This document shows, piece after piece, positions 4,972 to 61,700 of a stretch of DNA of 64,000 bases. The stretch lies in assembly GCF_003473485.1 (NCBI RefSeq), contig NC_053045.1, forward strand, positions 40,776,494-40,840,493, in the 5' to 3' direction. The stretch is from Medicago truncatula (lineage: Eukaryota; Streptophyta; Magnoliopsida; Fabales; Fabaceae). Position numbers and translations under genes: made by a program. Numbering within the stretch: position 1 is the first letter of the stretch; each line of letters begins with the position of its first letter. The notes under the pieces were generated by a model that was not told the origin of the DNA, did not search any database, and saw only the letters and a program-made list of their open reading frames with translations.

Positions 4972-5892
4972 GAGTAGATAGACAATTACCCCATTGAAAT
5001 TGTAAGTTTCTTCAATTACCCCCCCTGAAATTGTAAGTCTCTTCGATTAATCCTCTGAAATTAACAAAACTTCAATTACCCCACTTGAAATTTCACAACG
5101 TTAATCAATTTACCCCTTCCGTCAAATTTTTCTGTTAGTGAACATGACGTTTTGCAAATATCCCCCTAAAATTTTGCACTTATATGCAAAATGCTCCTCG
5201 AATTTAAAAATTTATATTATTTTTTCATAAGTGGAACACTAGAATAAAGAAAAATACACACCATAAGCACAAACAAAGTTGGCACAAACACTAGAACATG
5301 ACTGCTCTAAATTCCAGATGAATGGAAATCGGTTGAGAACAAATAAATTAATTTTCCTTAAAAAAAACAAATAAATTAATTTTCATATTTCTTTTGAATT
5401 AGAAAAGTAATTATTACATGTTGGCTATAGTACTTACAATCTTATTATATTGAAAAACAAAAAATATCAGCACAAGAACAAATGATTTTGCCATTTGCAC
5501 TCTTATATCATATATCATATAATTCCTATACATATCAATAGTGAGCAAGATATTTCAGAGAGAAAAAGCCAAAAGTTATGAAAAAATAATATAAATTTTT
5601 CCCACACCATAGAGCCAACTTTGTTCGTGCTTATGGTGTGTATTTTCCTTTATTCTAGTGTTTCACTTATGAAAAAATAATATAAATTTTTAAGTTTGGG
5701 GGGCATTTTGCACATAAGTGCAAAACTTTAGGGGGGTATTTGCAAAACGTCATGTTCACTAACAGAAAAATTTGATGGAGGGGGTAAATTGATTAACGTT
5801 GTAAAATTTCAGGAGGTAATTAAAGTTTTGTTAATTTCATAGGATAATTGATGAAACTTACAATTTTAGGAGGATAATTGCCTATTTATTCC
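4972..5892. mobile_element. Long-TIR foldback element, Mutator-like, copy 1
   Basis: The two arms, about 4972-5283 and 5600-5892, are inverted copies of each other at roughly 85-90 percent by eye. Each carries a series of short blocks of the form 'caattaccccnctgaaatt', then 'gaacatgacgttttgcaaat' and 'tttgcacttatrtgcaaaat'. The element is flanked by 'tcgtcaaac' (4963-4971) and 'ccgtcaaac' (5893-5901), a 9-bp duplication with one mismatch (8 of 8 if the first base is dropped). Long inverted arms with a 9-bp duplication fit non-autonomous Mutator-like elements. No transposase is visible. A second copy at 39641-40507 has the same outer arms but a different centre. Confidence 0.82.
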
Positions 5893-8274: not shown

Positions 8275-8600
8275 CAACTGTCTTTCATTTGGTAGGTGGT
8301 TGAAGCTCTCCAATAAGTAACCATTATCTTCACCCTAAGAGCACTAGATTCCTAGAATCTAAGAGTTTCACAGTTCTGCTTTTAGACGACGACCCTTATA
8401 GTTCAAAGAATCAATTGATTCTTGAATCATCAACTATATGACAAGATTGCCATCCTCTGAAATATGAAAAGTTCCACTAGAATCTAATAGAGACATATCG
8501 CGTTTAACAAGCCAAACAATTGTTTGAGGTTTCAATTTATAATACCATATACCAAAATTATTTCTGAGAATAGAGGGGTTGCCACTTCTTTCAATTGGGA
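8275..8600 (-). pseudogene. G-type lectin (S-locus) receptor kinase, B-lectin fragment
   Basis: On the minus strand, 8600-8434 encodes FGIWYYKLKPQTIVWLVKRD, then LLDSSGTFHISEDGNLVI. This matches the mannose-binding B-lectin domain of plant G-type lectin receptor-like kinases, whose usual form is GIWY..TVVWVANRD..GNLV. Downstream the similarity continues across stops and frame changes: NYKG, then LLDSRNLVLLGEDNGYLLES in a shifted frame, to about 8275. Signal peptide, PAN domain, membrane span and kinase are all absent. It is an isolated gene scrap, not an expressed receptor. Confidence 0.75.
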
Positions 8601-10259
8601 AAGGATAAACCCATATGAAATTGATTTCCTTCCAAAATAAGGTTAGATGAAGTTTCTTGTGATATTTTTTAATTAATGTTAAACTCATGTCTGCACGCTC
8701 GCATGCACAAATATGTATATTCACGCCTTAATAATTAGAATCCAAAAATTTGGTGCCTAAAATATGGGACCCTATGCGATCACGCACCCTAAATCCTAAA
8801 TATGCTTAGGAGTGCCATAGGCAGTATTTTCATCTCCTAAAGTGTCCAAAGAAGCACTTAAATGATCAAGCTTTACCTAGTAGATTGGCGCCAGAATCTG
8901 TTCAATCACTTTCACATGATGAAACTTCTCTAATGTTCGTGCCTATTTCACCAAAACTGAAAAGCCTTGGAAAAATGCGTGCCACAAAGAATACATTCTC
9001 TTCTCGACATCTCGATTCTGCTCAAGTTCTTAATGTAGAAAAATTGAAAACCAACTGTTTACTTGCAAGAAAATTGATATTGGTGAGGCTGCATTTGCTA
9101 GATCACTTAACTAAGTATCAAAAACCTCTCTCTAATTGGTGAAGAGGGAGTGAACAAGAGAAAGATAAAGTGGAACAAGATGAGATGACATGGCCTTAAT
9201 TAGTGATCTGGTATACTTGTGAATGAACAACTCTGTACGTGTGAAAGTCCTTTATATGGCAAATTAGCTCCATTAACAGAGATGATTAACGGCTGGATTT
9301 GAAGTGTCTAACAAAAGATACTTCCAGGGAGTTTATTTTAATTTCGTTATTTTCAGAGACTAACAAGGACCAAAATGAGGGTTTACCAAGAAAAATGATC
9401 AAAGTTTGATGATTTAGAGCAAAACAGATTGAAAGGTGGGAAAATAAACATGTTGCCTTCATGTTTGATGACTAACGATATCGAATAGGACATAATCTAT
9501 TTCTAAAGGACCGTAAATCAGGTGGTTGTAGATTGGCAAGATCTCAGTTCAACCAATTAAACAGGTTAATCTGGTTCTGACAAAATTACTACATATCTCT
9601 AACCCCTCCTCTAATCACAACCTCAAGCAACCACCTTACCTCTACTTGAATTCACCATAATACAATACAAGCCCTTACCTATATTTTAGAAGCCACCACC
9701 AAAAAGATGGCAGAAAAATGGCAAATGCATTCCAACCATCACATTTGGCTTCTGGGTTTTACAGTCCCTGTTAGCCAGGGCTTAATTTCCAACAAAGCCA
9801 TTCATTTTAATGACTAAAATAAAATAAAAACGCATGACTATATCTAGACTACAGCACCGAATAAGTGTTTATCTTTAATTAAATGCCATGATAAAAGTTC
9901 ATCAGAATTTAATCCAAAAACATATCTTTCAATCCATTGCTCTCTGAGATTTGATCTCTCGGTAGCTATCTAACATATGCATATCTAGCCCACCAATCCT
10001 CAAAGTACTTACATATACAAAGCATCATGAAAGACCCACAACAAAGAGATGGATTGGAGCGAACTTGGGCAAAAATCACATCTTTTAATAAGAAAGAACT
10101 TAAGCAACAATAGTAACCGAACATCGACTCCTACAGTGCAATGTATCTAAAATTCTAAACCAAGCATTCATTTCATAACATTAAATAAAATCATGAAATT
10201 AAGTGAAGCATATCACTCTCCAAAAACAGGAATTGAACACCTAAACCACTGGGAGTTGC
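8601..10259. other. Intergenic stretch, no recognised gene
   Basis: An open frame at 8885-9142 (plus, 85 codons) has no recognisable domain and no clear promoter or splice context. The remainder up to the stop codon of the calcyclin-binding gene shows no repeats or coding pattern I can name. The last few hundred bases before 10260 probably include the 3' UTR of that gene (minus strand). Confidence 0.4.
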
Positions 10260-11987: not shown

Positions 11988-12011
11988 CTACTACTACTAC
12001 TACTACTACTA
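11988..12011. repeat. (CTA)n microsatellite by a gene start
   Basis: Eight CTA (TAG on the gene strand) units, about 67-90 bp upstream of the ATG of the minus-strand calcyclin-binding gene. It probably lies in the 5' UTR or core promoter. Confidence 0.9.
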
Positions 12012-12624
12012 ACTATACATAATTGGGGGTAATTTGGTAATTTAGTAAGCCTTTTCCTCTAATTGCACATCACATCACAGAAGATTCTGGAGAGTCGTTC
12101 CATTTGGCGTGGAACCCTTAAATATTGAGTAAATGGTAAATAAAAAATCTCAAAATGTAAATTATTGCAAATTGCAAACACTCTTCTCAAAAAAAAAATT
12201 GGTACAACTACAGTATTTCTCTTAAATTTTGATATTTAATGTACACATTCCAATACATTATTAAGAGTTTATGCAATAATTGGTATAACTATTAGAATTT
12301 TTTTTACCCTAACATTTGCATAAACTTTCAACTTTATGAGCAAATACATGTTAATAGTTGAGAGTTTATGCAAATGTTTTATTGGTATTGTAAAACGACG
12401 TATAATTTGAGATAATTTTTTTTAAAAAGATGTGACATATAATTTAGAAGGGATGGAGTATAAAGCAAGACATCCAGCACAAGAGGCCATGCGTTCCTTT
12501 CTTTTTCTCTCACTCTTTTTTATAATCAATTACTATCAACGTTGATTCACATTATCACTTCAGCTAATTTTGTTTCCTCCCAATCATACAGAATTTTAAG
12601 CATTTCAAGCTTAATGAGAATAAC
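12012..12624. other. Intergenic stretch with a Stowaway-like remnant
   Basis: The segment 12205-12470 ends in 'tagaagggatggagta' and contains 'ttattggtattgtaaaacga', like the Stowaway MITEs at 39497 and 61871, but the left end is worn. It also has an internal inverted pair around 'agagtttatgcaa' and its complement. No gene is seen. Confidence 0.45.
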
Positions 12625-13277
12625 CGCCAAAACCAATCATTTGGATAACTGGCGTATTAATTATACTCTAACTACCAAAATTAACAGACTGCATGAAATG
12701 AAGTGTCAGTTAGTTATATCAAAACACTAAAACGGTTAGACTTCGGTTACAGTTATTTGTGAAGCAAGCTTACAAATCAAACATAAGGATAAAGGCCACT
12801 ATTCAATATCAGTCATCATCATACATCATAAAAGCCACTTTTTAATTATCTTTAAATAAAAGCCACTACTTAATAATGTTTAAAATTGTTATCCTGACAG
12901 ATATGCATAAATTTAAGAATAACCGTCACTAAAATTTCAAGCACAAGTTCATATCCCATAACATAATCCAATATATCAAATGGAAACTTACATCAAGCGA
13001 ACATTACAAACATAAAGTAAAGTATATATATTATGCTGAATTAATATTTTACCCCACTCATTTATAAGTTTATCAGCATAAAGTAAGATGCAATTAAGCA
13101 TTTAAGATAATTAGATTAACAAGCTTGATTAAGGGTGAGTTAGTATAGTGTCAACCAAAAGTAAGTAAGTAAGTAACTAACTAACTAACAAGAAAACAGT
13201 TAGAAGTCAGTTACAGTTAGAGTTACTTGTGAAGCAAGCTTCCAATTCAAACAAGCATACACTGAAACGTCACTCAC

Positions 13278-13287
13278 TATATAATAA
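13278..13287 (+). promoter_or_regulatory. Probable TATA box of tandem gene copy 1
   Basis: TATATAATAA lies about 80-90 bp before the ATG at 13369. It sits in a promoter block almost identical to that of copy 2 (19540-19866). Spacing fits a short 5' UTR. Confidence 0.6.
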
Positions 13288-13368
13288 TGATCAGTATCAC
13301 AAATCAATCATAATAACATTTCACATTTTCCATATTCTCTTTTCTCAGAAAGAAAGAAACCTCTCAAC

Positions 13369-15662
13369 ATGACTCAATCACCAAAGAACTCTCAAGATCC
13401 TCCATCCTCACCCAAAAACAAACCTCCATCTGATTCGCAACAACCACATTCATCTTCTGCACCGGAACAATCTGCCACCGGATCAAAGAAACCTGCCTCC
13501 ACTACGGGACAAGATGCCTCTGCAACCAAGCAAACTCCCTCCTCATCGGGAAAATGTGTCTCCGGCGGACTGACAAAACTACTCTCTGAAACGGGAAAAG
13601 ATGCCTCTACAGCAGAAGAAGGAGCCTCTACACCGGGAAAAGAATCTTCCACACAAGAAAAGTCACCATCAGCACCGGAACAAAAACCACCTTCTGCTAC
13701 TGGATCAGAGCCCATTGCCATACCTTCAAGGAAATGTAGTGATCTCCAAGACACACCAATTCATCATCCTAAATCGGATGCTCCTTTAGCCAGAACTCAT
13801 CGACTTCCAGGGTTTCTCTCATCAGGCAAGTCTGCTGAAACATCAGACAACTCTGATCAAGAAGAAAAAGCACCATCTGCTTCTCAGGAAGAAGAACCAT
13901 CTGCTGCTAAGAAAGAAGAAGAACCATTTGCTGCTAAGAAAGAAGAAGAACCATCTGCTGCTAAGAAAGAAAAAGCACCATCTGCTTCTCAGGAAGAACA
14001 AGAATCATCTGCTGCTAAGAAAGAAGAAGTATCATCTTCTGCTAAGAAAGAACAAGCAACATCTGCTTCACAGGAAGAACAAGGATCATCTGCTTCTAAG
14101 AAAGAAGAAGCACAATCCGCTACTCAGGAAGAAGAAGCACAGAAACCGAACCAGGATCCACCGCATCAAGATAGAGAGAAGACGTTCCTCTGGGGCATCA
14201 CTGTCGCCCTAGTCATTTCCCAAATCTTTACACTGGTATGCTTCTTTCTTTCTTTCTTTCTTTGATTTATTTATCTTTGTACTTGTGAATATAAATAAAT
14301 TTTCCTAAAGAAAGATAATGGTGTTGGTATCGAATGTATTTGTCTGTGTAGTTAGTATCTTATCATATGCATGGAATCTATGTATGTTCCTTAATTCATT
14401 TTTATACATGCCTTGGATTTTTACTATGACCGGGGTTTCAATTTTCAAGATTTATATGTATTGAGTTTTTGGAATATCACTAGAATTTATTTCAATTGAA
14501 TTATGTAGAAAGTTTTCCAATTCTTTTGTTGATGGATACTGGTAGTATATGTCCTTAATTCTGTGTGTTTCATGGCTTAAGAAAAAATTAATCTTCAATT
14601 TCATTATGTGACGTTCTGAGAATTAGTTTTGATACCAAAATATACTAGAAAATTTTATTTAAATTTGTTCACGTGTATATGTATCTAATTCGTTGTGTTT
14701 CTGTGAGTTCGAAAAAATTATGCTTCAATTTATCTTTATGACAAACTTCGTTTGATTTTGTATCGAGTTCTTGAACATGAGAAAATGAATTTCAATAATT
14801 AACTATAATAGATGTTCTTGCGTAAATCAAAAGGTTAGCATAGAGATTCAGAGACATTATTGTATATCGAATGCTTGAATATGACAGGTAGTAATGTGTT
14901 TGTGCATAAATTAGAAGGTTTACACAGAGATATTATTGAAGTTTCAAATTGGCTCAAGTATTTTCATTATTTTTTCCTTAATTTGTTACACATATTTTGA
15001 ATAATTTTAAAATATATTGCGTTGTTAATTTAACTTTTAGCTAATTATTTAATAAAGTAACTATTTGTCTAGCTGAATTGCTTTCTTTTTTGGCAAAATA
15101 TTAAGCTTAAGTGTGTAAAGAAGTATATGACAAGGGCTCTTTCTCCAAGGGACTCAAAACAGACAATTATTAACCAATTTGATTTGTTGTGTGATAAACT
15201 GATAATACTATTTGCATCCAAAGTTGTGTGTATATTTGCTACTTTTTTCTTAATATCTCTCAAGGTATGTGATGAAATTAGAATCAATGAATCAAGTGTG
15301 TAGCTCATTTTGTATTGTATGATGGAATGGTATATGGATTACCAACCATATCAAGTTAAACCAAAGATACCTTATTATTCTGTTTATTAATGTTGGTAAG
15401 TGACAGCAAATCTAAACCAGAATTTCTTTAAGTATCATCCTATTGAATAGATGAAGCGAATGCTTTTCTGAATTACAGATGTGTTTACTTTCTACATGGT
15501 TATTGTCTGTGCATGATCACTATAGAGAATGCTTTCTACGGAGGAAATTGCATTTGATTTCATTGTTGATGTATATCCCTGATTTGTATGTTTCTGTGCA
15601 ACATTATTAATTTTGTGTGCTGATTGTTGTTTCAGGTTTGGTATAATCGTCGTAGGACATGA
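13369..15662 (+). CDS. Tail-anchored Lys/Glu-repeat protein, copy 1 (unknown family)
   Basis: Two exons, 13369-14235 and 15636-15662, separated by a GT-AG intron of 1.4 kb. The product is 297 residues. Residues 1-115 are Ser/Pro/Gln/Thr-rich and low in complexity. About 116-165 is a more ordinary segment (KCSDLQDTPIHHPKSDAPLA, then RTHRLPGFLSSG). About 166-250 is built of degenerate 9-10-residue repeats of the type PSAAKKEEE alternating with SASQEEQ. The C-terminus has a single hydrophobic span (about 272-291, GITVALVISQIFTLVW). The second exon supplies only VWYNRRRT, so splicing completes the span and adds a basic tail, as in tail-anchored membrane proteins. There is no signal peptide. I do not know the family; membrane location with a disordered cytosolic part is inference. 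The intron was placed because both copies keep the same donor, acceptor and stop. Confidence 0.85.
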
Positions 15663-17700
15663 TCACTATTGGCATTGGTTTAGCAATTTAAAGCACATGT
15701 TACACACGAGAAGTTAAACCAAATTCACAAGTTGTGGCAAATTTTTTGACCTTATTTCATTGAGGCCATTACCAGACATAGACATTGTTTCTTTTGTTTT
15801 CTGTATGTTGATTACCCCCATTTTTTTTGTTAGCATTACCGCCACTTCGACATGGATATAGTTCCTTTGATTCGCATGTTGTTTACCCTAGCATAATAAA
15901 GCTGATAGTGACAGTCATATATTCTGGTTGAATGTTCCCTTATCAAATATTTTAGTTTGGTTTATTGTTTCTCGATGAATTCTTAGCTCATAAAATAAAG
16001 GTTTAACTACATGTGATCTTTATAATAGCCTTCAGTATAAATAAATATTTTTTGATATAATAACTGTCTAAACTTTTATAAATGCATGTATTAATTTGGT
16101 TGGAAGAACTCGTGTAGCAAATAGCACAATTTCCGGCCTTATGTGATATTTTCGCTTCTTTGATTGCAAAGATGCATTCTTTGGTGGAAGCTACTAAGCA
16201 AGCCTATTTGTCATGGCACAAAAAATTGTAGTCAGTCCAAAAATGTATTTAGGTAATAATCATAATGTGAAATCATAGGAAAGTTTTTTGTGGTTATTGT
16301 GGGGAAGTATAGCAATATGAAATGTCCTTTGCTTATTCCGATTATATGCAAGAAATGCTCAGTGTCTCAGTTATCTTCTTTGGAAGATATCTGTTGAAAA
16401 CCCAAAAATTAGGCACCAAGTATGCTCGCCGTAATATTACCGCATCATCACAAACAATATTATTTAGGCAAATGCTACATATGGCGAATCCATCGGAATA
16501 CAGTGGCATGCATCGAACAATAATCAATGAAATTTTAGAAAGCAAACGGCATGAACTTAGAAGATAAAAAACTGTCAAAAAAATGTGCGATCTTGATTAT
16601 TACTGCTCATGATTTTTTGCAAGTATCGCCAACGCTTCAAGCTAAAAGTAAGTTATCCTAACATGCAGACACGCTCAGTCGCTCATATGGAAGCAGTGGA
16701 TATGAAAGAAACTCAATGGCAAATACAGCACAGCGAAAGAGTGGGGAATTCCAGAGGAATGTTTTTAAAAGAATGTAAAAACATAAACCACAATGTCTTT
16801 AAAAGAATGTTTTTCTAAATAAGGCTACTACCATATGCTAAACCAGAATATTTGTTCGCAAGTAAAACTCAAAAGTATCTGCCAGTACATACTTTTTTGC
16901 CACTACCATATGGAGAATTCTTTCTCCTTTTGTATTGAAACCAAGACATTTAGAGAGTTTTGTTAATGTGTTTCAAAGAAAAATAAAAGAAAAACGATGA
17001 AATGACTGCTCAATATCTAGTACAATAATTGTCTTCCCTTTATCTCGTAGAACACAGAACTAAGAAGTATCCCTATTGCCCTTGTTCCTACCCCCACACC
17101 CTTATCTTATTTGTGCATATTCCTTTGATCCTATGGGGAATTTCCTAAGCATAGAGTTATGAAGATAGTTTACTCATGCAATCGATAAGTAGGTGATTCT
17201 TTCTTTAGAGATACAGTCTTCAGGCTCTTGATGCAATGTTTTTGGCATAGCAAGAAAACAGCAGAACAAATAAAAGAATAAATGTTAAAGGAAATTGGTC
17301 AAAAAAATAATGGCAATTCATAGTGATTTCTCAATATTGGTAAGTATGCATGGAAAAGGACATATAGTGATCTGGCATTATTAGTAAGGACGCGCGGAGA
17401 TTTATAACATGATATTTCAACCTCTCCAAAACTATGATCCAACGAATTGAAGTAAAAATAATAGCCATTAAAATTTTTCTTATCTCGACATAGATAAACA
17501 GAAATTTAAGCTAGAATAAATTTCAATCTAGAAGTAGTTCTGAGAGTTTGGCAAAAGCTCAAATCCCGTAACATCATCTAATGTATGAAAACTTTCAACA
17601 AGTGAACATTACAAAGGCATTTGCCAGTAGTCCTAATGTAGAACCTAGATACCAAAGTCAGTCTTCATAATCCTAATCACATATACAAAATTATAGCAAA

Positions 17701-19074
17701 GTTTATTTTAAAACAGTAGTAGTAAATTTATTGTTGTGGAGTGGCGTGGCTGCATATGCGCTAATGGTGGCATGAATTATGCTGCATACAAAGTACATGT
17801 GCTCTGATGCTGTAACTGGAAGGGGGTCATTGATGCATTGTTGTGTAAATGAGTGAGTGTAGGATGGAGAAGGTTATGCAAGATAGTGGAGCATATTGTT
17901 CTGTATTCCTCTGCTCACAATGAGTTGTTGATATAGTTTTTCAGATAATTTGAATTGGAGATGTCTTGTTGACTTTCATTTTTTATTTTTTTTTAAATAT
18001 CCACAAAAAAAAATCAAATTTTTTTCAATCAAATTCGTCCCTGTTCATGTGAAAGTTGATTTGGAACTCCGCTCTGGCGCTTAACGTGACACATCAACAC
18101 TTAAAGGCGAGACTTGACGAAGGGACTAAATTGATTGACATTTATTAAATTCAGAAACGCATTAGCTATTTCGAAAAAATTGAAAGATGAAATTGCATGC
18201 AAACTTGAGGACCAAAATGCCTATTCACTTGTAATTTTGCATAGACCGTTAAAGTGTAATAGAAAATTCTCCAAAGAAACATAACCACCACCCTGAAAAA
18301 CACATACCAATAAAAATCATTAACACAATTAATTAAGATGAACACAAGATAAAAGACAATATATATCTAAAATCTGTTGATGGATCCTTCCCACCTTTGC
18401 CAGCCCATTTCCTTCCACTACTCTGATATCAAGCCACAGAGTTCTTTTTCAGGAAATGCAACCTTCCATAAGCCTTAACATGAAAACAAAGACCTTTGAG
18501 ACTACGTTGAATATGGATGAAACTTCATTTCTAACATGAAAATGCAATAAATTACGGTTAAACACATTCTTTCAATTTTTAGCATTTATTTGACGGTATC
18601 ATGGATCAATTTGATAGTTAAGATAAATAATTCAGAGACCAATTTATAGGGAGTGACAAAATTCAAGGACCATCTTGATTCTTAGTGAATAATTCAGGGA
18701 TCGACTTGACAATGTAACAATTTGTAATGACTTTCATTTAAAATGTGTCAAAAAAAATAACTTTCATTTAAAAAAAAAGTCCATTTTTTTAAAATAATTT
18801 TCAATCAATTTCGTCCCTAAATATTTGGTAATCCTTGATAGCACTTAACGTCTTACGTCATCACTGTTAACGGTGAGACTTAACAGAGGGACGAAATTGA
18901 TCAACATTTGTAAAATTCATGTACGTTTTAGCTATTTTAAAAAATTTAAGGATGAAATTGACCGATATGTACAAGTTGAAAGGACAAAAAAGCCTATTCA
19001 CTCATAAAATAACTAATCCTTGTATATAAAATTCCTTGTATAACCCCCAAAACATGATACTAACCACCAAAACC
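17701..19074. repeat. Spacer with two direct copies of an unclassified repeat
   Basis: Copies at about 17960-18250 and 18765-19005 share, in order, a T-rich start, 'caatcaaattcgtcc', 'gcacttaacg', a 'ggtgagact' block, 'agggac(g)aaattgat', 'ttttagctattt' and 'gcctattcact'. The identity is imperfect, so the copies are old. Part of each is internally inverted around the 'aaattgat'/'atcaattt' blocks, which is MITE-like. They lie between the two large duplicated blocks and may have helped create them. Confidence 0.6.
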
Positions 19075-19775
19075 AATCCTTAGGATAAATGGCTTATTAA
19101 TTACTCTAACTACCAAAATTAACAAGCTTAATGAAATGAAGTGTCAGTTAGTTATCATATATCAAAACAGTTACCATAGTTTAACAAACTAACTAACTTG
19201 CTAGAAAACGGTTAGACTTCAGTTACAGTTACTTGTGAAGCTTACAAATCAAACATAAAAGCAACTATAGTTTTAACAAACTAAGTAGAAAACGGTTAGA
19301 CTTCACTTACGGTTATTTTTGAAGCGACTTTCCAAATCATACATAAAAGCCACTTTTTAATAATCTTTAAAATTTCTTTCCTGACATATACGCAGAAATT
19401 TAGTATAACTGTCACTAAAATCCCAACAATTTAGCACAAACATAATCCAATAAATGAAATGGAAACTTAAATCAAGTGAACATTACAAACATAATGTAAA
19501 GTATTATATGCTGAATTAATTAATATACAAAATATGGTATGCTGAATTAATATTTTTCCCCACTCATTTATAAGTTTACCAGCATAAAGTAAGATGCAAT
19601 TAAACATTGAAGAGAATTAGATTAACAAGCTTGATTAAGTGTGAGTTAGTATAGTGTCAACCAAAAGTAACTAACTAACTAACTAACTAGAAAACAGTTA
19701 GAAGTCAGTTACAGTTAGAGTTACTTGTGAAGCAAGCTTCTAATTCAAACAAGCATACACTGAAACGTCACTCAC

Positions 19776-19785
19776 TATATAATAA
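19776..19785 (+). promoter_or_regulatory. Probable TATA box of tandem gene copy 2
   Basis: Same TATATAATAA element and spacing to the ATG (19867) as in copy 1. Confidence 0.6.
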
Positions 19786-19866
19786 TGATCAGTATCACAA
19801 ATCAATCATAATAACATTTCACATTTTCCATATTCTCTTTTCTCAGAAAGAAAGAAACCTCTCAAC

Positions 19867-21872
19867 ATGACTCAATCACCAAAGAACTCTCAAGATCCTC
19901 CATCCTCACCCAAAAACAAACCTCCATCTGATTCGCAACAACCACATTCATCTTCTGCACCGGAACAATCTGCCTCCGGATCAAAGAAACCTGCCTCCAG
20001 TACGGGACAAGATGCCTCTGCAACCAAGCAAACTGCCTCCTCATCGGCAAAACGTGTCTCCGGCGGACTGACAAAACTACTCTCTGAAACGGGAAAAGAT
20101 GCCTCTACAGCAGAAGAAGGTGCCTCTACACCGGGAAAAGAATCTTCCACACAAGAAAAGTCACCATCGGCACCGGAACAAAAACCACCTTCTGCTACTG
20201 AATCAGAGCCCATTGCCATACCTTCAAGGAAATGTAGTGATCTCCAAGACACACCAATTCATCATCCTAAATCAGATGCTCCTTTAGCCAGAACTCATCG
20301 ACTTCCAGGGTTTCTCTCATCAGGCGAGTCTGCTGAAACATCAGACAACTCTGATCAAGAAGAAAAAGCACCATCTGCTGCTAAGAAAGAAGAAACACCA
20401 TCTGCTAAGAAAGAAGAAGAACCATCTGCTGCTAAGAAAGAAGAAGTACCATCTGCTGCTAAGAAAGAAGAAACACCATCTGCTAAGAAAGAAGAAGAAC
20501 CATCTGCTGCTAAGAAAGAAGAAGTACCATCTGCTGCTAAGAAAGAAGAAGCATCAGCTAAGAAAGAAGAAGCACGATCCACTGATCAGGAGGAAGAAGC
20601 GCAGAAACCGAACCAGGCTCCACCGCAGCAAGATAGAGAGAAGACGTTCCTCAGGGGCATCACAGTCGCCTTAGTCATTTCCCAAATCCTTACACTGGTA
20701 TGTGTCTTTCTTTCTTTCATTCTTTTGATTTATTTATCTTTGTACGTGTGAATATAAATAAAGACTCCTCAAGAAAGATAATTGTGTTGGTATTGAATGT
20801 ATTTGTCTGCGTAGTTAGTATCTTATTGTATGCATGCAATCTATATATGCTCCTCAATTCATTTTTATACATGCCTTGGATTTTTACTATGACCAGGGTT
20901 TCAACTTTCAAGATTTATATGTATTGAGTTTTTGGAATATCACAAGAATTTATTTCAATTGAATTATGTAGAAAGTTTTCCATTTCATTTGTTGATGGAT
21001 ACTGGTAGTATATGTCCTTAATTCCCTATGTTTCAATATGTGATGTTCTGATAATTAATTTCGATACCAAAATATACTAGAAAATTTTATTTAAATTTGT
21101 TCATGTGTATGTGTATCTAATTCGTCGTGTTTCTATGAGTTCGAAAATTTTTTGCTTCAATTTATCTTTATGACAATCTTGGTTTGATTCTGTATCGAGT
21201 TCTTGAACATGAGAAAATGAATTTCAATAATTAACTATAATAGTAATATGTTTGTGCATAAATCAGAAGGTTAGCATAGAGATTCAGATACATTATTGTA
21301 AAGCTAATTGGTGAACTCAAGCATGTTTGTAAAGCTTTCTAATTTTGCAAAATGTTAAGCTTAATTGGTGAACTCAAGCATGTTCTATGTATTTGACAAG
21401 GGCTCTCTTTCTGTAAGAGACTCAAAATAGACAATTATGAACCAATTTGATTTCTTGTGTGATAATACTATGTTTTTGTGGGTTTAGAACTATTTATTGA
21501 ATGTCCTTATCAAAGTAATTAATTACCTTACATCCAAAGTTGTGTGTGTGTATATTTGCTACTTTTTTCTCAATATATCTCAAGGTATGTGATGAAAGTA
21601 GAATCAATGAATCAAGTGTGTAGCTCATTAAGTATCATCCTATTGAATAGACGAAGAGAATGCTTTTATGAATTACCGGGCGTTAATGATGTGTTTACTT
21701 TCTACATGGTTATTGTCTGTGCATGATCACTATAGAGAATGCTTTCTACGGAGGAAATTGCATTTGATTTCATTGTTGATGTATATCCCTGATTTGTATG
21801 TTTCTGTGCAACATTATTAATTATGTGTGCTGATTGTTGTTTCAGGTTTGGTATAATCGTCGTAGGACATGA
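19867..21872 (+). CDS. Tail-anchored Lys/Glu-repeat protein, copy 2 (unknown family)
   Basis: Two exons, 19867-20697 and 21846-21872, with the same intron position and the same eight-residue second exon as copy 1. The product is 285 residues. The first 165 or so residues differ from copy 1 at only a few positions (for example ASGSKKPAS for ATGSKKPAS, and SSAKRVSG for SSGKCVSG). The repeat region was rebuilt: a 26-residue unit (PSAAKKEETPSAKKEEEPSA and six more) is present twice in perfect tandem, and the SQEEQ blocks of copy 1 are missing. The C-terminal span reads GITVALVISQILTLVW, then YNRRRT. The open frame and matching splice sites suggest both copies are functional. The role is unknown. 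Confidence 0.85.
20371..20526 (+). repeat. Perfect 78-bp coding tandem repeat (two units)
   Basis: Units 20371-20448 and 20449-20526 are identical, keep the reading frame and encode the 26-residue Lys/Glu unit. Their identity points to a recent duplication by slippage or unequal exchange within the gene. A partial third unit follows. Confidence 0.92.
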
Positions 21873-23295
21873 TCACTATTGGCATTGGTTTAGCAATTTA
21901 AAGCACATGTTACACACGAGAAGCTAAACCAAATTCACAAGTTGTGGCGAATTTTTTGACCTTATTTCATCGAGGTCATTGTTGCATATGGTTTGTTTGT
22001 TACCATTACCAGACATAGACATCATTTCTTTTGTTTTCTGTATGTTGATTACCCCCATTGAGGCCTTTGTTGCATATGGTCTGTTACCACCATCACCAGA
22101 CATAGATAAATGCAGTTTCTTTTGTTTTCTGTATGTTGATTACCCCCATTTTTTTTGTTAGCATTACCACCACTTCGACATGGATATAGTTCCTTTGATT
22201 TGTATGTTGTTTACCCTAGCATAATAATGCTGATAGTGACAGTCATATATTCTGGTTGATATGTTCCCTTCTCAAATATTTTAGTTTGGTTTATTGTTTC
22301 TCTTGATGAATTCTTAGCTCATAAAATAAAGGTCTAACTACATGTGGTCTTTATAATAGCCTACATTATAAATAATCATTTTTTGATAAAATAATTTTCT
22401 AATCTTTTATAAATGCAATTTGGTTGGAAGAACTCGTGTAGCAAATGGCACAATTTTCGGTCTTATGTGAAATTTTAGCTTCTTTGATTGCTAAGATGCA
22501 TTGTTTTATGGAAGCTACTAAGCACGTCTATTTGTCATCGCACAAAAAATTGTAGTCAGTCCAAAAATATATTTAGGCAATCATCATCATAATGTGAAAT
22601 CATAGGAAAGTTTGTTTGTGCTTATTCTGTTCATATGCAGGAAACAATTATCACAAAGTGTCTCAATTATCCTCTTTGGGAGAAATCTGTTGAAAACCCA
22701 AAAAATAGGCAGAATGCACGCGGTAATATTACAGCACCAACATAAACATTGTTATTTAGGCAACATAGAGTCGGCGAAGATAGTTTACTCATGCAATCAC
22801 TAAGGAGGTGATTCTTTCTTTAGAGATACAATCTTTAGGCTTTAGATGCAATGTTTCTGGTTTCTAGTTTCATCTAACATAGTCGAGATTGTCATAGCAA
22901 GAAAACAGCAGAACAAATAAAAGGATAATAGTGATTTCGCAATATTGGTAAGTATGCATGCAAAAGGACATATAGTGATCTTGCATTATTAGTAAGGATG
23001 CGCGAAGATATATAGCATGATATTTCAAACTGTCCAAAAATATGATCCAACAAATTGAGATAGAAATAAGTGCTACAATAATAGTCATTAAAAAATTTCT
23101 TATTTCGACATAGATACGTAGAAATTTAAGCTAGAATAAAAATTCAATCTAGAAGTTCCAAGAGTTTGGCGAAAGTTCAAATCCCGTAACATCATCTAAT
23201 GTATGAAAACTTTCATCAAGTGAACATTACTAGGGCTGTAATCATAATGTATAACCTAGAAATCAAAGTCAGTCTCCATAATCCTAACTTGGTTG

Positions 23296-23920
23296 AAAAT
23301 TCACTTTTCAACTTTGATTACCTAGGTTCGATACTCAGGCACACCGGAAACCATATTGTATATCTAATCCTAAACATTGTTATGTCATGCACAATTAACA
23401 ATTCTGTTACCTAATCCTAAACACGTTTATGCCACGCACAATTAACAATCTGTGCAAACCCTTTTACAATTACAAAAAAAAAATCTGCGCAAACCACGAT
23501 CAAAGTTTTTTTGCTTGACCTTTTCTCGCAGAGATAACTGACACAGTTTGTCTCTCACCTGATTAAGCACATCTCATCAGACTATTCCATTTTTTCACAC
23601 TATGAATGGCTGAGCCCCTGAAAGCTGAAAGTGTTTGTATCTTTGCATTTGTGGTATAGGGTAGAATGAAGTGGAATGAACTATGTTAGATTTTAAAAGA
23701 GGGGGGTTATCATAGTTTATCCCAATCAACTTCATTCTACTCTATATCGTCAATCCAAAGTACATATCCTAAAAAACTATCAATGAAGTGCAAGCTAAAC
23801 CAGTTGAAGGTGGCAGGTTTCTAAGGTCTAAAGAGATATGCGAAGAGGGACACGTCTTTAGCAAAGTTACTCCAGCTAGGTAGTGTTCAACCCCATTCCC
23901 TTATCTTGAGCTTGCTTGTG
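23296..23920. other. Intergenic stretch with a small MITE-like inverted repeat
   Basis: At about 23632-23769 the segment 'tagggtagaatgaagt' is mirrored by 'cttcattctactctat'. The outer ends 'gtttgtatctttgcatt' and 'aatccaaagtacatatcc' are also inverted. This makes a foldback of about 140 bp, class unknown. Otherwise this is intergenic DNA and the probable 3' UTR of the minus-strand coiled-coil gene. Confidence 0.5.
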
Positions 23921-25198
23921 TCACATAATACTCTGAAGTTGCTTTTGCAACTGTGCTTTTATTTGGTGGTTAGATTCGACATTTCTACATACATTTTCCT
24001 TCTCAGCCAAGAGTCTCAACCTCCTCGCTTCAGCATCAGCTATCTCAGAATTACACGAGTTCCTTTTGTTGCTTTTAAAATCCATGAAAGAGGACCTCAG
24101 CTGAAAACCAGAAACAGAACCACTTTCAAACAATTAACAATCCACCAGATTGATCATAATCTAACATTGTTACTATTAATTTCATACAAATTGATAGCTA
24201 GGAATGCTGAACCATGATCAAAAGAAGCACATATATAGCATACCATAAACATACATGTCAATATCTGTTTTACTTTCAAATTTTAATCATGACTTTGTAC
24301 AAAAACACCCGGCTGCTATAAATAGTATAAGAAACACCGGCACATAAATGGACAACAGATACACGACACTAACACCGAGACTTATATACCGATAACAGTT
24401 TAAGAAAATATTAATGATTATATGTAACCAAAAATGCCGACACTTATATACACGACAATATTAGACACTCGAACACGCCTTGGATATAGTGTCAGTGCGC
24501 TACATATGTGATTATATCTAAAACTAAAAATTAAGCTTAATTTCTAGGTGCCTGGAAGCTTGAAAAGCATGATTATTGGAAGTTTAACTTAATTTTGAAA
24601 GCATAAATAAATGGACACATGATTAAGAATTTAATAATATAAACAAAATGAAACAGAAAAATTGTATGAAGTTGATGATTTTACAGTTACCTCATTGACT
24701 GCATTCCTCAAACTCTGAACTTCAAATTCACATTTCATCACAAACTTCTCCGCCAATTCCTTGAATTCCTTCATTTCCATCTTCTTTGCCTCATAAAACC
24801 TATCTTTCATTTTGTGCAACTCATCAATCTCATCCACCTCATTCTGCAATGACCTAAATTCTTGCCAAAGTGAATCATATTTCGCTTCGAGGTTCTCAAT
24901 TTGAGACTTAAGAGACAAAATGTTGAAATTCTGCGATGCAATTTTTCGATCAAACAGCAAGCACCGTTGTTCCATGGCTCCGATATTTGCAAGCTTTGAA
25001 GCTAGAATACGAGATTTGTGCGCTTGCAATTCTTTCTCAGCCTGAAAATTGATATGTGGATTTTAAAAATTGGATGCTGAAATCAGAATTGAAAGGAAGT
25101 GGAAATGAATTGAAGTGAACCTGAAGTAAGGAGAGGCGTTGAATTCGAGTGCTATCCATTTGTTCGAGTCGTTCATGGAATGCCGAAGAAAACGCCAT
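23921..25198 (-). CDS. Small coiled-coil protein, function unknown
   Basis: Three exons on the minus strand: 25198-25121, 25041-24691 and 24100-23921. Introns are GT-AG and all are in phase 0. The product is 202 residues. It starts MAFSSAFHERLEQMDSTRIQ and is almost wholly helical and charged, with heptad-like Leu/Ile spacing through about 27-190 (NFNILSLKSQIENLEAKYDS, then EEVDEIDELHKMKD-like spacing). There is no signal peptide, membrane span or enzyme motif. Single-domain coiled-coil proteins of this size occur among kinetochore, meiotic and cytoskeletal subunits, but I cannot assign it to any. The start is the first ATG in frame with the conserved-looking exon; upstream in-frame ATGs extend into promoter-like sequence. 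A MITE lies about 150 bp upstream of the ATG. Confidence 0.8.
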
Positions 25199-35113: not shown

Positions 35114-37074
35114 TTAAACAAAGGCACAAAGTGATGAAATCAGCAAATACACAAACATCCAGTGGAATAAGCTTTGGTTTTCCTTTTGTGAGGCCTGCTT
35201 CAAAGTAAAATTTGATTTGAAAAGAAGATAATCAGATTGATGTTGATCACATTAATATATATAATAAAGTGCTTAAAATAGCAAAATAGTCATAGTATAC
35301 TTGAAGAAAATATTTGACTAATATATGTCACTAGAAATAAGACAATCTTTTAAATTATATACAAATACCTTTTAAAATTGATATACTGTCTAAAACACGG
35401 TCTTTGAACCAAAATGCAAATCTTGTATCAAAAGACATCTTTTTTAAATTATGAATCAAATCATATAAATTGCCATAAGATGCACGATCAATACAAATTA
35501 ATATTTAAAAAAAACATGTGACATAGACAAAATCATAGCTGGTGTACCATACAATAACTTTAAAATAATTCAAGGTTCTTAGTTATAGATCAAAATGACA
35601 AATAAAAATGGTTCGCATAACAAAATTCAAATGTTCAACTCCAATAAACATAATCTATATATCAAAATGAATCTAGATTCATCTGCATGTCGAAAGTATA
35701 TATATACCCACAATTTGCATGTACTTCAAAGATACCAATAATCATGATCTAAATTACATTTTCATTTTCTATCACAAAAATTTTAATATAAGCTAAATAA
35801 GTTGTGTATTATTGGAAAAGAAAAATAAAATGTTTTTACTCTTTTTTTTTACCTTTGTCCTAGTGGCAGAGGAGGTAAGAGAAATTGAAGTAGAAGGATT
35901 TGATGACTTTGCAAAAGAAGACAACCCAACATTGTAAGTCATACTTTCATCAGGCTCAAATAAACCATAGTTCCTCTCTGAGGTTGGTCCATTCTTCATA
36001 TTTTCATTAAATAATGCAAACAAATATGATTCCAATCTCATTCTAGGATTCAAAGGTGTCCCTTCATTCTTCATTTGTCTCCTCAATAAATTCTTGTTAT
36101 AAATTTCAGCATTTTTCAATGATGCACCAATTTCATCAGAGTCACCTTTACTTGGCCAACCAGTCTCAGAAACCCTAACTTCTATCCCATTAAAACCTAA
36201 TTTAGCAATTGCAAATGTAACAGCATCTACCATAGCATAAAGCATGTTATCATAATGTAAATTTGTATTAGGATCAACCATTCCTTGGTTAGGATTAAAT
36301 AATACATAGTCTAAAGATATTTGATTAGGGTCATTCTTATAAGCAAAATAAGGATAAGCATTGACCCAAAAGGGTGATTTTGTTTTTGACAAAAAGTTCA
36401 AAAATTCCTTCATGATTTCAGAGATTTCACTTCTGAAACTACCAGCTGAAGGAGGGTAAGATTCTTCAAGAACTTCTAATGAACTAGGTGTTGACACATG
36501 AATGTTTGTGTTCAAACCTAATTGAACTAGAGCATTGTAAATGTTGATCACTGCTGGAACAAGATATTGAATTAGGGTTGTGTCGAGTTCTGTGAAAACT
36601 TCATTCCCTACTTGAATTCCAGTGATCTTTGTGTCTGGAAGATATGGTTTGATATTGGTATTTACCCATTGAAGTGCTTGTTGTGGATCATTTAATTGGT
36701 TTAGTATTTGATTTTCAATTGTTACGATGATTTCCACGTTTGAATTGGCGAAAGCTTTAAGAATCTGTGGATTCGTATCGTAGATTCTTGTTTTTGTGAT
36801 CTTTAAGGTGCTGAGAAGTTCTAGTACTTTTTCTGGTTGTGGCAAATTGTTAGCTACTTGTCCATAGTTTATTCCAAACGACGCAACACGTGCGAAAATT
36901 CCAGTATCTGAAATTGCATAATCAGTAAAAATCTATTAGCAATAATGTTACAAACTAGAATGCAGTAAAGATAAGATAACATGCATGAAAAAACAGAACA
37001 AACAGGGTACCTGTATAGAGAAAAAATGCTAGAAGAATATAACGTATTGCCATTTTTTGAGTAAATGTTGCCAT
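35114..37074 (-). CDS. GH17 glucan endo-1,3-beta-glucosidase, GPI-anchored type
   Basis: Three exons on the minus strand: 37074-37011, 36907-35853 and 35194-35114, with GT-AG introns. The product is 399 residues. Residues 1-21 plus a short stretch form a signal peptide (MAIRYILLAFFLYT, with a second in-frame Met at position 8). The GH17 barrel starts at SFGINYGQVANNLP. The general acid is Glu124 in ITGIQVGNEV and the nucleophile Glu269 in VRVSETGWPSKGD. WVNAYPYFAY and NYGLFEPD are family motifs. The last exon adds a Ser-rich spacer and a hydrophobic end (about 383-399, HWMFVYLLISSLCAFV), a typical GPI signal. It hydrolyses beta-1,3-glucan (callose) at the outer plasma membrane or wall; a role in plasmodesmata or defence is possible. 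Without the last splice the frame would end in a basic, Asn-rich tail. Confidence 0.92.
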
Positions 37075-39496: not shown

Positions 39497-40653
39497 CTTC
39501 CTCCGTCCCAAATTGTATGACGTTTTGAGCATTTCACATATATTAAGAAATGTAATTAATATTATGTAGAAAATAGATATTATGAGTTGTTTTACAAAAT
39601 TATCCTTAATAAATGATATGAGAAAGATAAATGAAAAAATGAGTAAATAGTCAATTTCCCCCCTGAAATTGTAAGTTTCATCAATTACCCCCCTGAAATT
39701 AACAAAACTTCAATTACCCTCCTGAAATTTCACAACGTTAGTCAATTTACCCCCTCCATCAAATTTTTCTGTTAATGAACATGACGTTTTGCAAATACCC
39801 CCTGAAGTTTTGCACTTATGTGCAAAATGCCCCCCAAACTTAAAAATTTATATTATTTTTTTCTTAAAAACAAACAATTAATAGTTAAATATTAAAGCTA
39901 ACTATTAATTTTGGAATTTAGAAAAACTACATGCATATATACATCAAAATAGGAAAAATGTGTATTTTTAAAGTGACAATAATTGTTATTTCTAATAGAC
40001 AAATTATTATTTTTAGAGGTTTATAAACAAATTAATAATCAGATTTAAATTTATATTTTCTCCTTCACCATCTTAGTCTTTTAACTCATTCAACAATTTG
40101 CTCAAACCATTTAAACTACACAACCCCCAATATTAATCCGCAAATCATCCCATTATTGTCACTTTAAAAAATACATATTTTTCCCTATGTTGGAGCCTAT
40201 TTTGATGTATATATGCATGTAGTTTTCCCAAATTCCAAAATTAATAGTTAGTTTTAATATTTAACTATTAATGTTTGTTTTTAAGAAAAAAATAATATAA
40301 ATTTTTAAGTTTGGGGGGCATTTTGCACATAAGTGCAAAACTTCAGGGGGATATTTGCAAAACGTCATATTCACTAACATAAAAATTTGACGGAGGGGGT
40401 AAATTGACTAACGTTGTGAAATTTCAGGGGGGTAATTGAAGTTTTGTTAATTTCAGGGGGTAATTGATGAAACTTACAATTTCAGGAGGGAAATTGACTA
40501 TTTACTCTGAAAGAATTGAAAGAAGAAAGAGTAATAAATAGTTAAAAATATAATAGGAAAAGTAACATTAATGTTTCATTGGTATTGTAAAGTGACATAC
40601 AATTTGGGACAAATATTTTTTCTAAAGTGACATACAATTTGGGACGGAGGGAG
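39497..40653. mobile_element. Stowaway-type MITE, interrupted
   Basis: The ends are CTTCCTCCGTCCCAAATTGT and its inverse ('acaatttgggacggagggag'), flanked by TA on both sides (39495-39496 and 40654-40655), as expected for Stowaway/Tc1-mariner MITEs. It is split by the Mutator-like foldback at 39641-40507. Without the insertion it is about 280 bp. The same MITE family, in opposite orientation, is at 61871-62453. Confidence 0.88.
39641..40507. mobile_element. Long-TIR foldback element, Mutator-like, copy 2
   Basis: It starts GAGTAAATAGTCAATTTCCC and ends with the exact inverse. The arms are about 350 bp each and contain the 'caattaccccnctgaaatt' blocks also seen at 4972-5892. The centre differs from copy 1: here the inner arm has 'catgcatatatacatcaaaa'. 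It is flanked by 'tgaaaaaat' (39632-39640) and 'tgaaagaat' (40508-40516), a 9-bp duplication with one mismatch. It inserted into a Stowaway MITE, and the related MITE at 61871 has this site once (62009-62017). Confidence 0.88.
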
Positions 40654-40655
40654 TA

Positions 40656-53733: not shown

Positions 53734-54731
53734 GTGTACTTGCCTTCTCTAACTTTATGCATTAGTACTTTTATTGTGTGACTGTTTTGTATCATCATAA
53801 GCTGAAGTTACTATGTAAGATTGTCTCCTTAATCTTAATTTGATACTGATGTCAAATTCACTGAAGAGAAGGTTCATGAAATACATACACTGAACTACAC
53901 TATCAGATTCAATTTCAAATGTGGATTATAAAACGAATTTCACTCAAAATATACAAGAATCTTCCCCTTACATTTAGCTCACCATTTTTCACAATATGAC
54001 GATAATTTTGAAATAAGATTCATATTTTCAGACTCATTTTAGTCAAGTTTGAATACTCACCACTACCAGATAAAATTTTCTACAATTATTTTCTTTCCTC
54101 GCCATTTCCAAACAAGAAACATTATCCAAGAAAGTTCGGATTCTTTACTACTCAGACCAACAAGCGTCTACGTAACTTGTCTTGATAGATGAATAGGTTC
54201 AATCATATACAATAATAAAGTAAAATATTTTTTTTGAAAATTTTAAATTTATTTTTGTGTAGGTTGCCTCCATTTTACAAATTTCTTGACACCACTATCT
54301 GGTAGATATTACGTCGTTCTCCCAGAAACGCTCAAAATTTCTTGTGATTTCAGACACTGCTAGCTCAACTTTCTGCTAGAAGTTGTTTTGGTTCTTCAAC
54401 TGACACTAGCCACAAACATGGTCAATTATGTTTAATCAATCATATGAGTATAATGACAAAATTGCTATAAGTTTTTTGTCACGTTTTAGATACAGAAGAA
54501 ATCTGCAAGAATATACCAGGCACACATTTTACTCACAAAAATATCACATGGAACTAATGACAAAAATAATTAGCATATAGACAAAAAGAACAACAAAAAT
54601 CTTAGAGATATTTATTTTTTGTTCCTGTTATATTGGATTTGTAAGGTTATGGTTTATGCTACTGCATTCACCTTATCTCTTAAAGCTTGGTTATAATTCA
54701 AATAAAGCAAGAGCGGCAAAGAAATTAAACA
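53734..54731. other. Intergenic stretch between the C2 and phosphohexomutase genes
   Basis: It contains the 3' region of the C2 gene and the promoter of the next gene on the same strand. No further gene, repeat or clear TATA box is recognised. Confidence 0.4.
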
Positions 54732-60023: not shown

Positions 60024-61700
60024 AGTGGTTAATTAATGGGTTTAGGCACGCCTAGAGCTGATGAGGTTAAGTTAGATAGAGGTCTTGCTAATAGTGATTG
60101 GTTTCGGATGTTTCCTAATGTTACGGTAGAAAATTTAATGGCTCCGGCATCAGATCGTTATCCTCTTCTTTTAAAACAGAAGGAAACTCGCTGTGTTTGG
60201 GTTCCTAGAAAAAAATTTCAATTTGAAAATGCATGGTGTGTGGAACCAGGAATTCATGATATTGTCTCTGATAGCTGGTTATCTAGTACATGTATGCAGG
60301 TGGTGGAAAAGCTTGAAGTCTGTGCGAATGATCTCAATTCTTGGAGCAAAGCGCATAACAATGGTCTAAAGCAAGAAATTGAAAATTGTCGCTGTGACTT
60401 AAACCGTTGTAGGAGTCGAGGGGCTGCGGCTTATCCTAGTTTGTTGACAAACTTGCGCATTTGATGATTCAAGAGGATAAGTATGGGTGACAGCGAGCAA
60501 AGACACACTGGTATCATGATGGTGACTTGAATACCAAATATTTTCATGCTTCAACCACGTCAAGAAAGAAGGTAAACCGCATTAATGTTTTGGATAATAA
60601 TGAAGGGGTACGAATTGCTGATGAACAAGGCATGCGTCAGGTTGCAAAAGAATATTTTGAGACTTTATTTTTAGAGAGCAATAGTACTCGTGCACCGGTT
60701 GTTAATATAATAGAAAAAGTTGTGTCTGATGATGATAATATTATGCTAACTGCTCCCTTTGAGGTTGAAGAATTTAAGGACGCTACGTTTTCTATGCATC
60801 CAGATAAGTGTCCTGGTCCAGATGGTTTTAATCTGGGATTTTTTTCAACAATTTCGGTCTGTCTGTAATTCTGACATTTTTCAGGAATGTTGTGTGTGGC
60901 TCAATCATAATCATTTTCCACCGTCACTAAGCACAACAAACATTGCATTAATCCCTAAAGGTAATGAGCAAAGAACCATGAAGGATTGGAGGCCGATTGC
61001 TTTATGTAATGTTTTGTACAAATTAGTGGCAAAAGTACTTGCTAATCGACTCAAAAAAATCTTGCATAAATGTATCTCCGAGAGTCAGTCAGCTTTTGTA
61101 CCAGAGCGCTCTATTCTTGATAACGCCATGATTGCTATTAAGGTGGTCCATCATATGAAAGTTGGTAAGAGAGTTAGAGATAAAAATGTCACACTTAAAT
61201 TAGATATTAGTAAGGTGTATGATAGAATTGATTGGCTTTATCTCAAGGAAGTGATGCTTAAAATGGGTTTTGACAGTAAATGGGTACAATGGATTATGAT
61301 GTGTGTTGAAACTGTTGATTACTCTGTCATCGTTAACAATGAGTTGGTAGGTCCGATTATACCGGGTAATAGTCGCCTTATTTATTTATTTTGTGCTGAA
61401 AGCTTATCCGCTCTTATTCGGAAAGCAGAACGAAGTGGAGACCTCCATGGCGTGTCTATTTGTACTAATGCACCTACTATTTCTCACCTATTGTTTGCAG
61501 ATGATTGCTTTTTGTTTTTCAGGATTGACGATAAGGAGGCACAAGTGATGAAGAATACTCTACATACTTATGAACTTGCTTCGGGGCAGACCATTAGTCT
61601 TCCAAAGTCCGAGGTTTTCTTCAGTGGTGTTGTTCCATTGCCTTCAGTAGTGTTGGCATATTTTATCTAATGAAATGCAATGATTTTCTTCCCTAAAAAA
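60024..61700 (+). pseudogene. Truncated L1-type LINE: endonuclease end and reverse transcriptase
   Basis: The sequence enters at the C-terminal end of the APE endonuclease (RADEVKLDRGLANSDWFRMF). It passes through the linker (WYHDGDLNTKYFHASTTSRK, in two frames with an internal stop near 60464), then the RT domain (CPGPDGFN, NIALIPKGNEQRTMKDWRPI, ALCNVLYKLVAKVLANRLKK, SAFVPERSILDNAMIA). RT motif A is KLDISKVYDRIDW. The catalytic FADD box is present (LLFADDCFLFF). There are frame shifts at about 60470 and 60840. The conserved R-Q-G-D-P-L-S-P block, which should sit just before YLF, has been deleted at about 61368-61385. After 61620 the body jumps to a 3' tail ('ttttatctaatgaaatgcaa') and a short A-rich end at 61697. 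The copy is dead. Confidence 0.88.

Follow-up and report, generated by a model that had tools for sequence, protein, structure and literature searches.

Two intact members of a small dispersed gene family in Medicago truncatula: a tandem pair of predicted tail-anchored proteins probably homogenised by gene conversion

A 64-kb window of contig C4 of Medicago truncatula (40776494-40840493) contains two intact two-exon genes in tandem, copy A (13369-15662, 297 residues) and copy B (19867-21872, 285 residues; positions are those of the window). Each would encode a disordered arm on a C-terminal tail anchor with a basic tail. On balance, we favour the view that A and B belong to a small dispersed family, of which no other intact member was found, and that the pair has been homogenised by gene conversion. 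The family is most likely young, with two survivors.

The two copies have in common the start codon, the GT/AG splice sites and an eight-residue second exon, VWYNRRRT (Table 1). The sequence at 13175-13368 upstream of copy A is almost the same as that at 19673-19866 upstream of copy B. Downstream of copy A, poly(A)-like signals were found at 15895 (AATAAA; AATAAT in B) and at 15994 (AATAAA). The first-pass annotation of this DNA had described a tandem pair with the same promoter and splice sites, and this description holds, as both open reading frames (ORFs) are intact, both introns have GT..AG borders and the core promoters are near-identical. Both genes are presumably spliced and expressed. 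Self-BLAST revealed a tandem segmental duplication of ~4-5 kb per side, with insertions and deletions, which exceeds the extent given earlier. We found no convincing terminal inverted repeats around the duplicated segment and identified no carrier, and transposon carriage was rejected.

Residues 1-160 are rich in Ser, Pro, Thr and Lys, and charge-hydropathy analysis places the whole arm on the disordered side, near charge balance. The arm is thus probably long (~255-270 residues), hydrophilic and disordered. The sole hydrophobic stretch reads (K)TFLxGITVALVISQIxTLVWY and is followed by NRRRT and the stop codon; it is also the only region with Kyte-Doolittle windows >1.0. The span covers ~19 residues, with inexact ends, and its best 19-residue mean is 1.96 in A and 1.82 in B. 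The tail-anchor layout and the long charged disordered arm proposed in the first-pass annotation are therefore borne out, the disorder as a probable feature. The statement that the span is 'completed only' by exon 2 has to be corrected: nearly the whole span already lies in exon 1, and exon 2 contributes VWY and the basic tail NRRRT. The residue heading the span is Trp in A and Arg in B. Relic copies elsewhere in the genome carry Arg (L021) or Lys (L022) there, which makes a derived state probable for the Trp of A and damage improbable for the Arg of B. Basic residues were present in all three relic second exons examined (L039, L040 and the acceptor-less L020). Translated by eye, these read AWSISRRT followed by a stop (C5:19.87 Mb), AWYNRRSR... 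with the stop lost (C5:19.30 Mb) and WYNPRRN with the acceptor lost (C5:29.75 Mb).

The tail NRRRT resembles signals of the mitochondrial-outer-membrane or plastid-envelope type, and either organelle would be a possible destination. As described in PMC4154396, dibasic tail-anchored proteins of the mitochondrial outer membrane (Cb5-6, TraB, PMD2, MIRO1) have a single C-terminal span of <21 residues and moderate hydrophobicity. The expanded dibasic motif of the same source requires two neighbouring basic residues, with no Glu following, in a tail 3-8 residues long; Cb5-6 ends in -SRKT and TraB in -SRRK. Under these definitions, the single short span of A and B agrees with that of the dibasic proteins and NRRRT matches the expanded tail motif. 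Members of this class also have no cleavable N-terminal presequence. In contrast to these mitochondrial proteins, A and B have no recognisable folded cytosolic domain, their arm is a hypervariable minisatellite and their localisation is a prediction. A second motif, RK/ST, is reported for some plastid-envelope tail-anchored proteins in a review (PMC8644595), and RRRT fits its name, the definition being known via that review alone. OEP7.2-type proteins of the plastid outer envelope, which carry the RK/ST motif, would likewise have a short C-terminal tail with basic residues and then Thr. The cytosolic part of A and B is, we presume, far longer than that of OEP7.2. Tail-anchored proteins reaching more than one organelle are reported in both sources (PMC4154396, PMC8644595). 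The A-domain of Toc159 (PMC2805684) is charged, disordered, variable and cytosolic, and sits on the outer membrane of an organelle; the arm of A and B resembles it in kind but not in kinship. Unlike Toc159, copy A has no GTPase domain (no Pfam match, E-value up to 1), and its arm is near charge balance rather than strongly acidic. Plant KASH proteins have a C-terminus formed by a PT-type KASH motif. An assignment to them was rejected, as both copies end in RRRT and have no PT-type end. Putative outer-membrane targeting by the basic tail is better founded than the 'tether or scaffold' role proposed earlier for the arm, which is a guess.

The C-terminal part of the arm is a minisatellite with a 27-bp unit, corresponding to nine residues (roughly KKEEEPSAA). 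The exon 1 lengths of A and B differ by 36 bp, in frame and inside the repeat. It had been claimed that the repeat was rebuilt 'always in frame'; the preserved frame itself is correct, but it carries little weight as evidence: with units of 27 bp and a second open frame in exon 1 (140 codons in A, 128 codons in B), preservation is nearly automatic. Within the arrays, we compared 9-residue units and dropped shorter ones. The nine units of A differed on average at 3.25, 1.19 and 0.67 sites at codon positions 1, 2 and 3, and the six units of B at 1.33, 1.47 and 0.67 sites. With third codon positions the least variable, nothing in the arrays indicates that selection holds their residues. The relic at C5:29.75 Mb has an array with a 45-bp unit, and that at C5:19.87 Mb an array with a 39-bp unit and 105- and 144-bp higher orders. 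Both units are also multiples of three, and the arms of different members are therefore built from different repeats.

The genome (430 Mb, 42 contigs) was queried with the exon 1 protein and DNA, the tail, the intron, exon 2 with the 3' end, and the 3' flank. The counts are lower bounds, and the exon-1 DNA query started at 13200, so that only the core part of the promoter was covered. Thirteen loci were examined, of which A and B are intact and 11 are broken or partial relics, 8 of the 11 lying on C4 and C5. More diverged members may exist beyond those found. A short 3'-flank match at C5:8.74 Mb lies outside the 13 examined loci, and L064 (C5:19.850-19.859 Mb), checked for a further copy, gave no match. 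Two further candidates were rejected as chance matches, one at C1:8.66 Mb (E-value 6.1) and one at C5:44.48 Mb (E-value 2.2), the latter in a long ORF that by eye resembles an AAA ATPase.

At relic L022 (C2:7552320-7552845), a single open frame runs from the membrane-span exon into further pieces. These read, we presume, like a shuffled elongation factor G, and an ORF downstream is one that we take to be RNase-T2-like.

Searches for a known family covered copy A in Pfam and the PDB, and exon 1 of both copies in NCBIfam, a prokaryote library. The 297-residue protein of copy A had no Pfam match at E-values up to 1, and its last 40 residues gave chance-level Pfam matches only (best E-value 0.1). 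The N-terminal pieces of relics L020 and L021 had no match in Pfam, exon 1 of A and B had none in NCBIfam, and exon 1 of A had none among PDB sequences. A match of the last 40 residues of A to the photosystem II protein PsbL in the PDB (E-value 0.48) disappeared with a 30-residue query and was rejected as chance. Rfam gave no match at the gathering score in window positions 12000-24000, and a literature search by peptide strings and topic, made without a gene identifier, returned nothing recognisably on this gene. The view of the first-pass annotation that the protein belongs to no recognised family thus stands for copy A in Pfam and the PDB and for exon 1 of both copies in NCBIfam. The pair resembles lineage-restricted (orphan) gene families in general: no family could be detected for it, its sequence is of low complexity, and intact copies are few beside many relics. 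A lineage-specific origin is possible and, judged within this plant's own genome, would be compatible with the dispersed relics.

The resemblance between A and B is concentrated in two identity islands. Island 1 (13175-13860), from the core promoter to codon ~164, contains 12 mismatches in 686 positions, and island 2 covers the 3' end of the gene (Table 1). Four stretches outside the islands (12859-13174; 14111-14841, with 125 coding bases included; 15981-16288; and 17159-17657; badly aligned stretches excluded) contain 162 mismatches in 1751 positions. The copies thus differ by ~2% in the islands vs 9% elsewhere. The islands were found by sliding comparison, with borders chosen after viewing the plot. 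Mismatch positions were therefore also permuted, using 3150 columns (of 3982 aligned) after removal of the badly aligned ones, and none of 2000 permutations was as clean as observed at 300-, 500- or 650-column windows. In the first 167 codons, we counted 7 replacement and 3 silent differences (replacement rate dN 0.019, silent rate dS 0.024, ratio 0.78). Silent sites (3/126) and replacement sites (7/375) changed at similar rates (p=0.72), and silent sites were below the outside rate (p=0.005). The N-terminal 165 residues had been called nearly unchanged, and with 7 amino-acid changes in 167 codons that is true of the residues. It most likely does not reflect protein conservation, since the 10 changes give a dN/dS of 0.78 and both the silent sites and the 5' untranslated region (UTR) are similarly unchanged.

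A block that merely evolves slowly should be better matched by the relics as well. Within island 1, L021 is 79-80% identical to A or B, L020 85-86%, L009 88% and L008 89-91%; for stretches of the intron, the values are 84-85% for L021, 77-79% for L020, 90-91% for L008 and 83-84% for L022 (including the end of exon 1). In island 2, L020 was 83-84% identical. L020 is thus closer to the pair in the islands, L021 shows the reverse and L008 is equal, and because they disagree in direction there is no consistent slowing of the relics in the islands. Together, the similar depletion of silent sites, replacement sites and the 5' UTR and the absence of consistent slowing in the relics point to gene conversion between A and B as the most likely origin of both islands.

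Whether the open frame is under selection was judged against a neutral model based on 9% divergence and on four selected noncoding stretches, which hold 11 indels in 1376 bp, 7 of them not multiples of three. For both copies, this model predicts 2.1 nonsense changes and 1.8 frameshifts, with a joint chance of none of ~0.02, although it gives the repeat the mutation pattern of ordinary DNA, a doubtful premise for units of 27 bp. Because the neutral chance of both frames being open is this small, some degree of selection on the open frame is likely, the evidence being modest. In the C-terminal 44 codons, of which 8 lie in island 2, there are 4 silent changes in 29.7 sites vs 4 replacement changes in 102.3 sites (p=0.08), so that the C-terminus leans to purifying selection.

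Several observations weigh against the reading of a functional, converted pair. With 11 of the 13 examined loci broken or partial, the family may simply be dying. The dN/dS of 0.78 leaves no residue-level constraint visible on the arm, and in both arrays the third codon positions are the least variable, whereas purifying selection on residues would produce the opposite. All three would fit a decaying, non-functional family in which duplication and conversion have kept the leftover open frames of A and B alike and the protein has no role; a 27-bp unit preserves the frame at little cost, and a second frame is open as well. We regard such decay as a real possibility, though a clearly less probable one than a functional pair. 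It is opposed by the low neutral chance of two open frames, by the intact core promoter, splice borders and tail of both copies, and by the leaning of the C-terminus to purifying selection. Two further points concern the islands. Their borders were picked post hoc and fall close to promoter and poly(A) region, so that regulatory constraint could yield the same pattern. L020 is also somewhat closer to the pair in the islands (83-86% identity) than in the intron, where it reaches 77-79%; L021 goes the other way. Functional conservation of promoter, 5' leader, N-terminus and 3' end in place of conversion would account for islands that start near the core promoter and stop near poly(A)-like signals. 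Yet N-terminal silent sites are as depleted as replacement sites and lie below the outside rate, and L008 and L021 are no closer to the pair inside island 1 than in the intron, which makes constraint an unlikely source of the islands.

The relics also bear on a different origin for the family. The N-terminus of L020 (4943-5179, minus strand) reads MAQSPKNDQDFNEWVLISH... and that of L021 (4700-4953, minus strand) reads MTDSAKNTQDFNDWVLVSD... The motif FN[DE]WVL[IV]S occurs in these two of the five loci that keep the leader and is missing from A, B and L009, although the rest of their leader can be aligned; as read from this alignment, it would have been lost in frame from all three. The family could in this case have begun as an autophagy-linked tail-anchored adaptor, the relic motif being an ATG8-interacting motif that was deleted in frame from A and B. 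In L020 and L021, the motif fits the core ATG8-interacting pattern [WYF]xx[LIV], which PMC9907853 describes as common and prone to false matches. There is a precedent in TRB1, a plant mitochondrial outer-membrane protein that binds ATG8 via such motifs (PMC9513094). However, both motif carriers are broken genes and A and B are without the motif, the only pattern match in A is FTLV at residue 287, inside the membrane span, B has none, and that the motif is ancestral is an assumption. We consider an adaptor origin improbable.

Least probable of all is that the intron, whose donor sits at the end of the membrane span, acts as a targeting switch. Intron-retained proteins would end in ...LTLVCFFLSFFL in A and ...LTLVCVFLSFILLIYLSLYV in B, and these ends are longer, more hydrophobic and without basic residues; the best hydropathy window is 2.39 when retained vs 1.96 when spliced in A, and 2.79 vs 1.82 in B. 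The spliced form would then go to an organelle outer membrane and the retained form would carry a tail of the endoplasmic reticulum type, with the same arm on two membranes.

In our preferred reading of A and B as a homogenised pair of intact genes, the arm, ending in its Lys/Glu minisatellite, would be held by one short, moderately hydrophobic C-terminal helix and the exon 2 tail NRRRT. This tail would direct the protein post-translationally to the outer membrane of mitochondria and/or the outer envelope of plastids, and the arm would face the cytosol, perhaps, as a guess, as a hydrophilic spacer or weak interaction platform. Its length and charge may drift through repeat slippage. The pair would have been duplicated in tandem and would then have diverged by ~9%, with gene conversion homogenising both transcribed ends and the repeat and most of the intron staying divergent.

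Table 1 Coordinates of the tandem pair (window positions) and of the relic loci (contig positions)
Feature	Position	Strand	Remarks
Copy A core promoter and 5' UTR	13175..13368	+	TATA-like CACTATATAATAA; start of identity island 1; promoter reading by eye
Copy A exon 1	13369..14235	+	Codons 1-289: Ser/Pro/Lys-rich arm, 27-bp repeat, most of putative membrane span
Copy A minisatellite, in frame	13862..14140	+	27 bp, 10.4 copies; 81-bp higher-order period
Copy A exon-1 part of putative membrane span (TFLWGITVALVISQIFTL)	14182..14235	+	Best 19-residue Kyte-Doolittle mean 1.96
Copy A intron	14236..15635	+	1400 nt, GT..AG
Copy A exon 2	15636..15662	+	VWYNRRRT, then stop
Identity island 2	15432..15980	+	Intron 3' end, exon 2, 3' UTR to poly(A) region; 14/549 mismatches
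Copy B core promoter and 5' UTR	19673..19866	+	Near-identical to the copy A counterpart
Copy B exon 1	19867..20697	+	Codons 1-277
Copy B minisatellite, in frame	20360..20579	+	27-bp units, 24-/21-bp variants; 78-bp higher-order repeat, 2.9 copies, 93% matches
Copy B intron	20698..21845	+	1148 nt, GT..AG
Copy B exon 2	21846..21872	+	VWYNRRRT, then stop
Duplicated segment, copy A side	12614..17676	+	Self-BLAST; discontinuous, parts without match in B
Duplicated segment, copy B side	19054..23287	+	Self-BLAST
Relic	C4:37.58 Mb		5' end only, early stop
Relic	C4:39.64 Mb		Rearranged: repeat, motif and intron pieces
Relic	C4:39.62 Mb		Intron only
Relic	C5:19.87 Mb		Exon 1 with one-base deletion in span; copia-like element in intron (by eye); exon 2 present
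Relic	C5:29.75 Mb		Frame ends before span; acceptor lost
Relic	C5:19.30 Mb		Exon 1 absent from the 9 kb covered; intron and exon 2 present, stop lost
Relic	C2:7.55 Mb		Span and intron start only
Relic	C2:19.54 Mb		Intron only
Relic	C8:43.99 Mb		Promoter only
Relic	C5:19.84 Mb		3' flank only
Relic	C5:19.887 Mb		Promoter and 3' flank only

Elsewhere in the window, the minus strand carries a fragment like a mannose-binding lectin domain (8434-8727; E-value 2.6e-4, below the Pfam cut-off), a 143-residue coiled-coil-like ORF (24631-25062; Pfam HCMV_UL139, PF12507, 7.4e-22) and a glycosyl hydrolase family 17 gene (35793-36932; Pfam E-value 1e-85). On the plus strand are probable phosphoglucomutase/phosphomannomutase exons (54729-57395; E-value 1.9e-11, from a scan of the first ORF only) and a reverse transcriptase ORF (60750-61670; Pfam RVT_1, E-value 1.9e-22) resembling a long interspersed nuclear element (LINE) in appearance. 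Inverted and direct copies of a dispersed repeat lie at 5012-5888 and 39641-40655 and are 88-96% identical within the window.

The pair thus represents a small family that is unmatched in the libraries searched and whose second exon carries an organelle-targeting-like signal. If the intron-retention reading were true, it would be an unusual way of choosing a membrane; otherwise, this is an ordinary young, mostly decayed gene family. It also provides a clear local case in which gene conversion, as the most likely cause, can pass for conservation between paralogues: without the relics and the silent sites, the N-terminus would look constrained.

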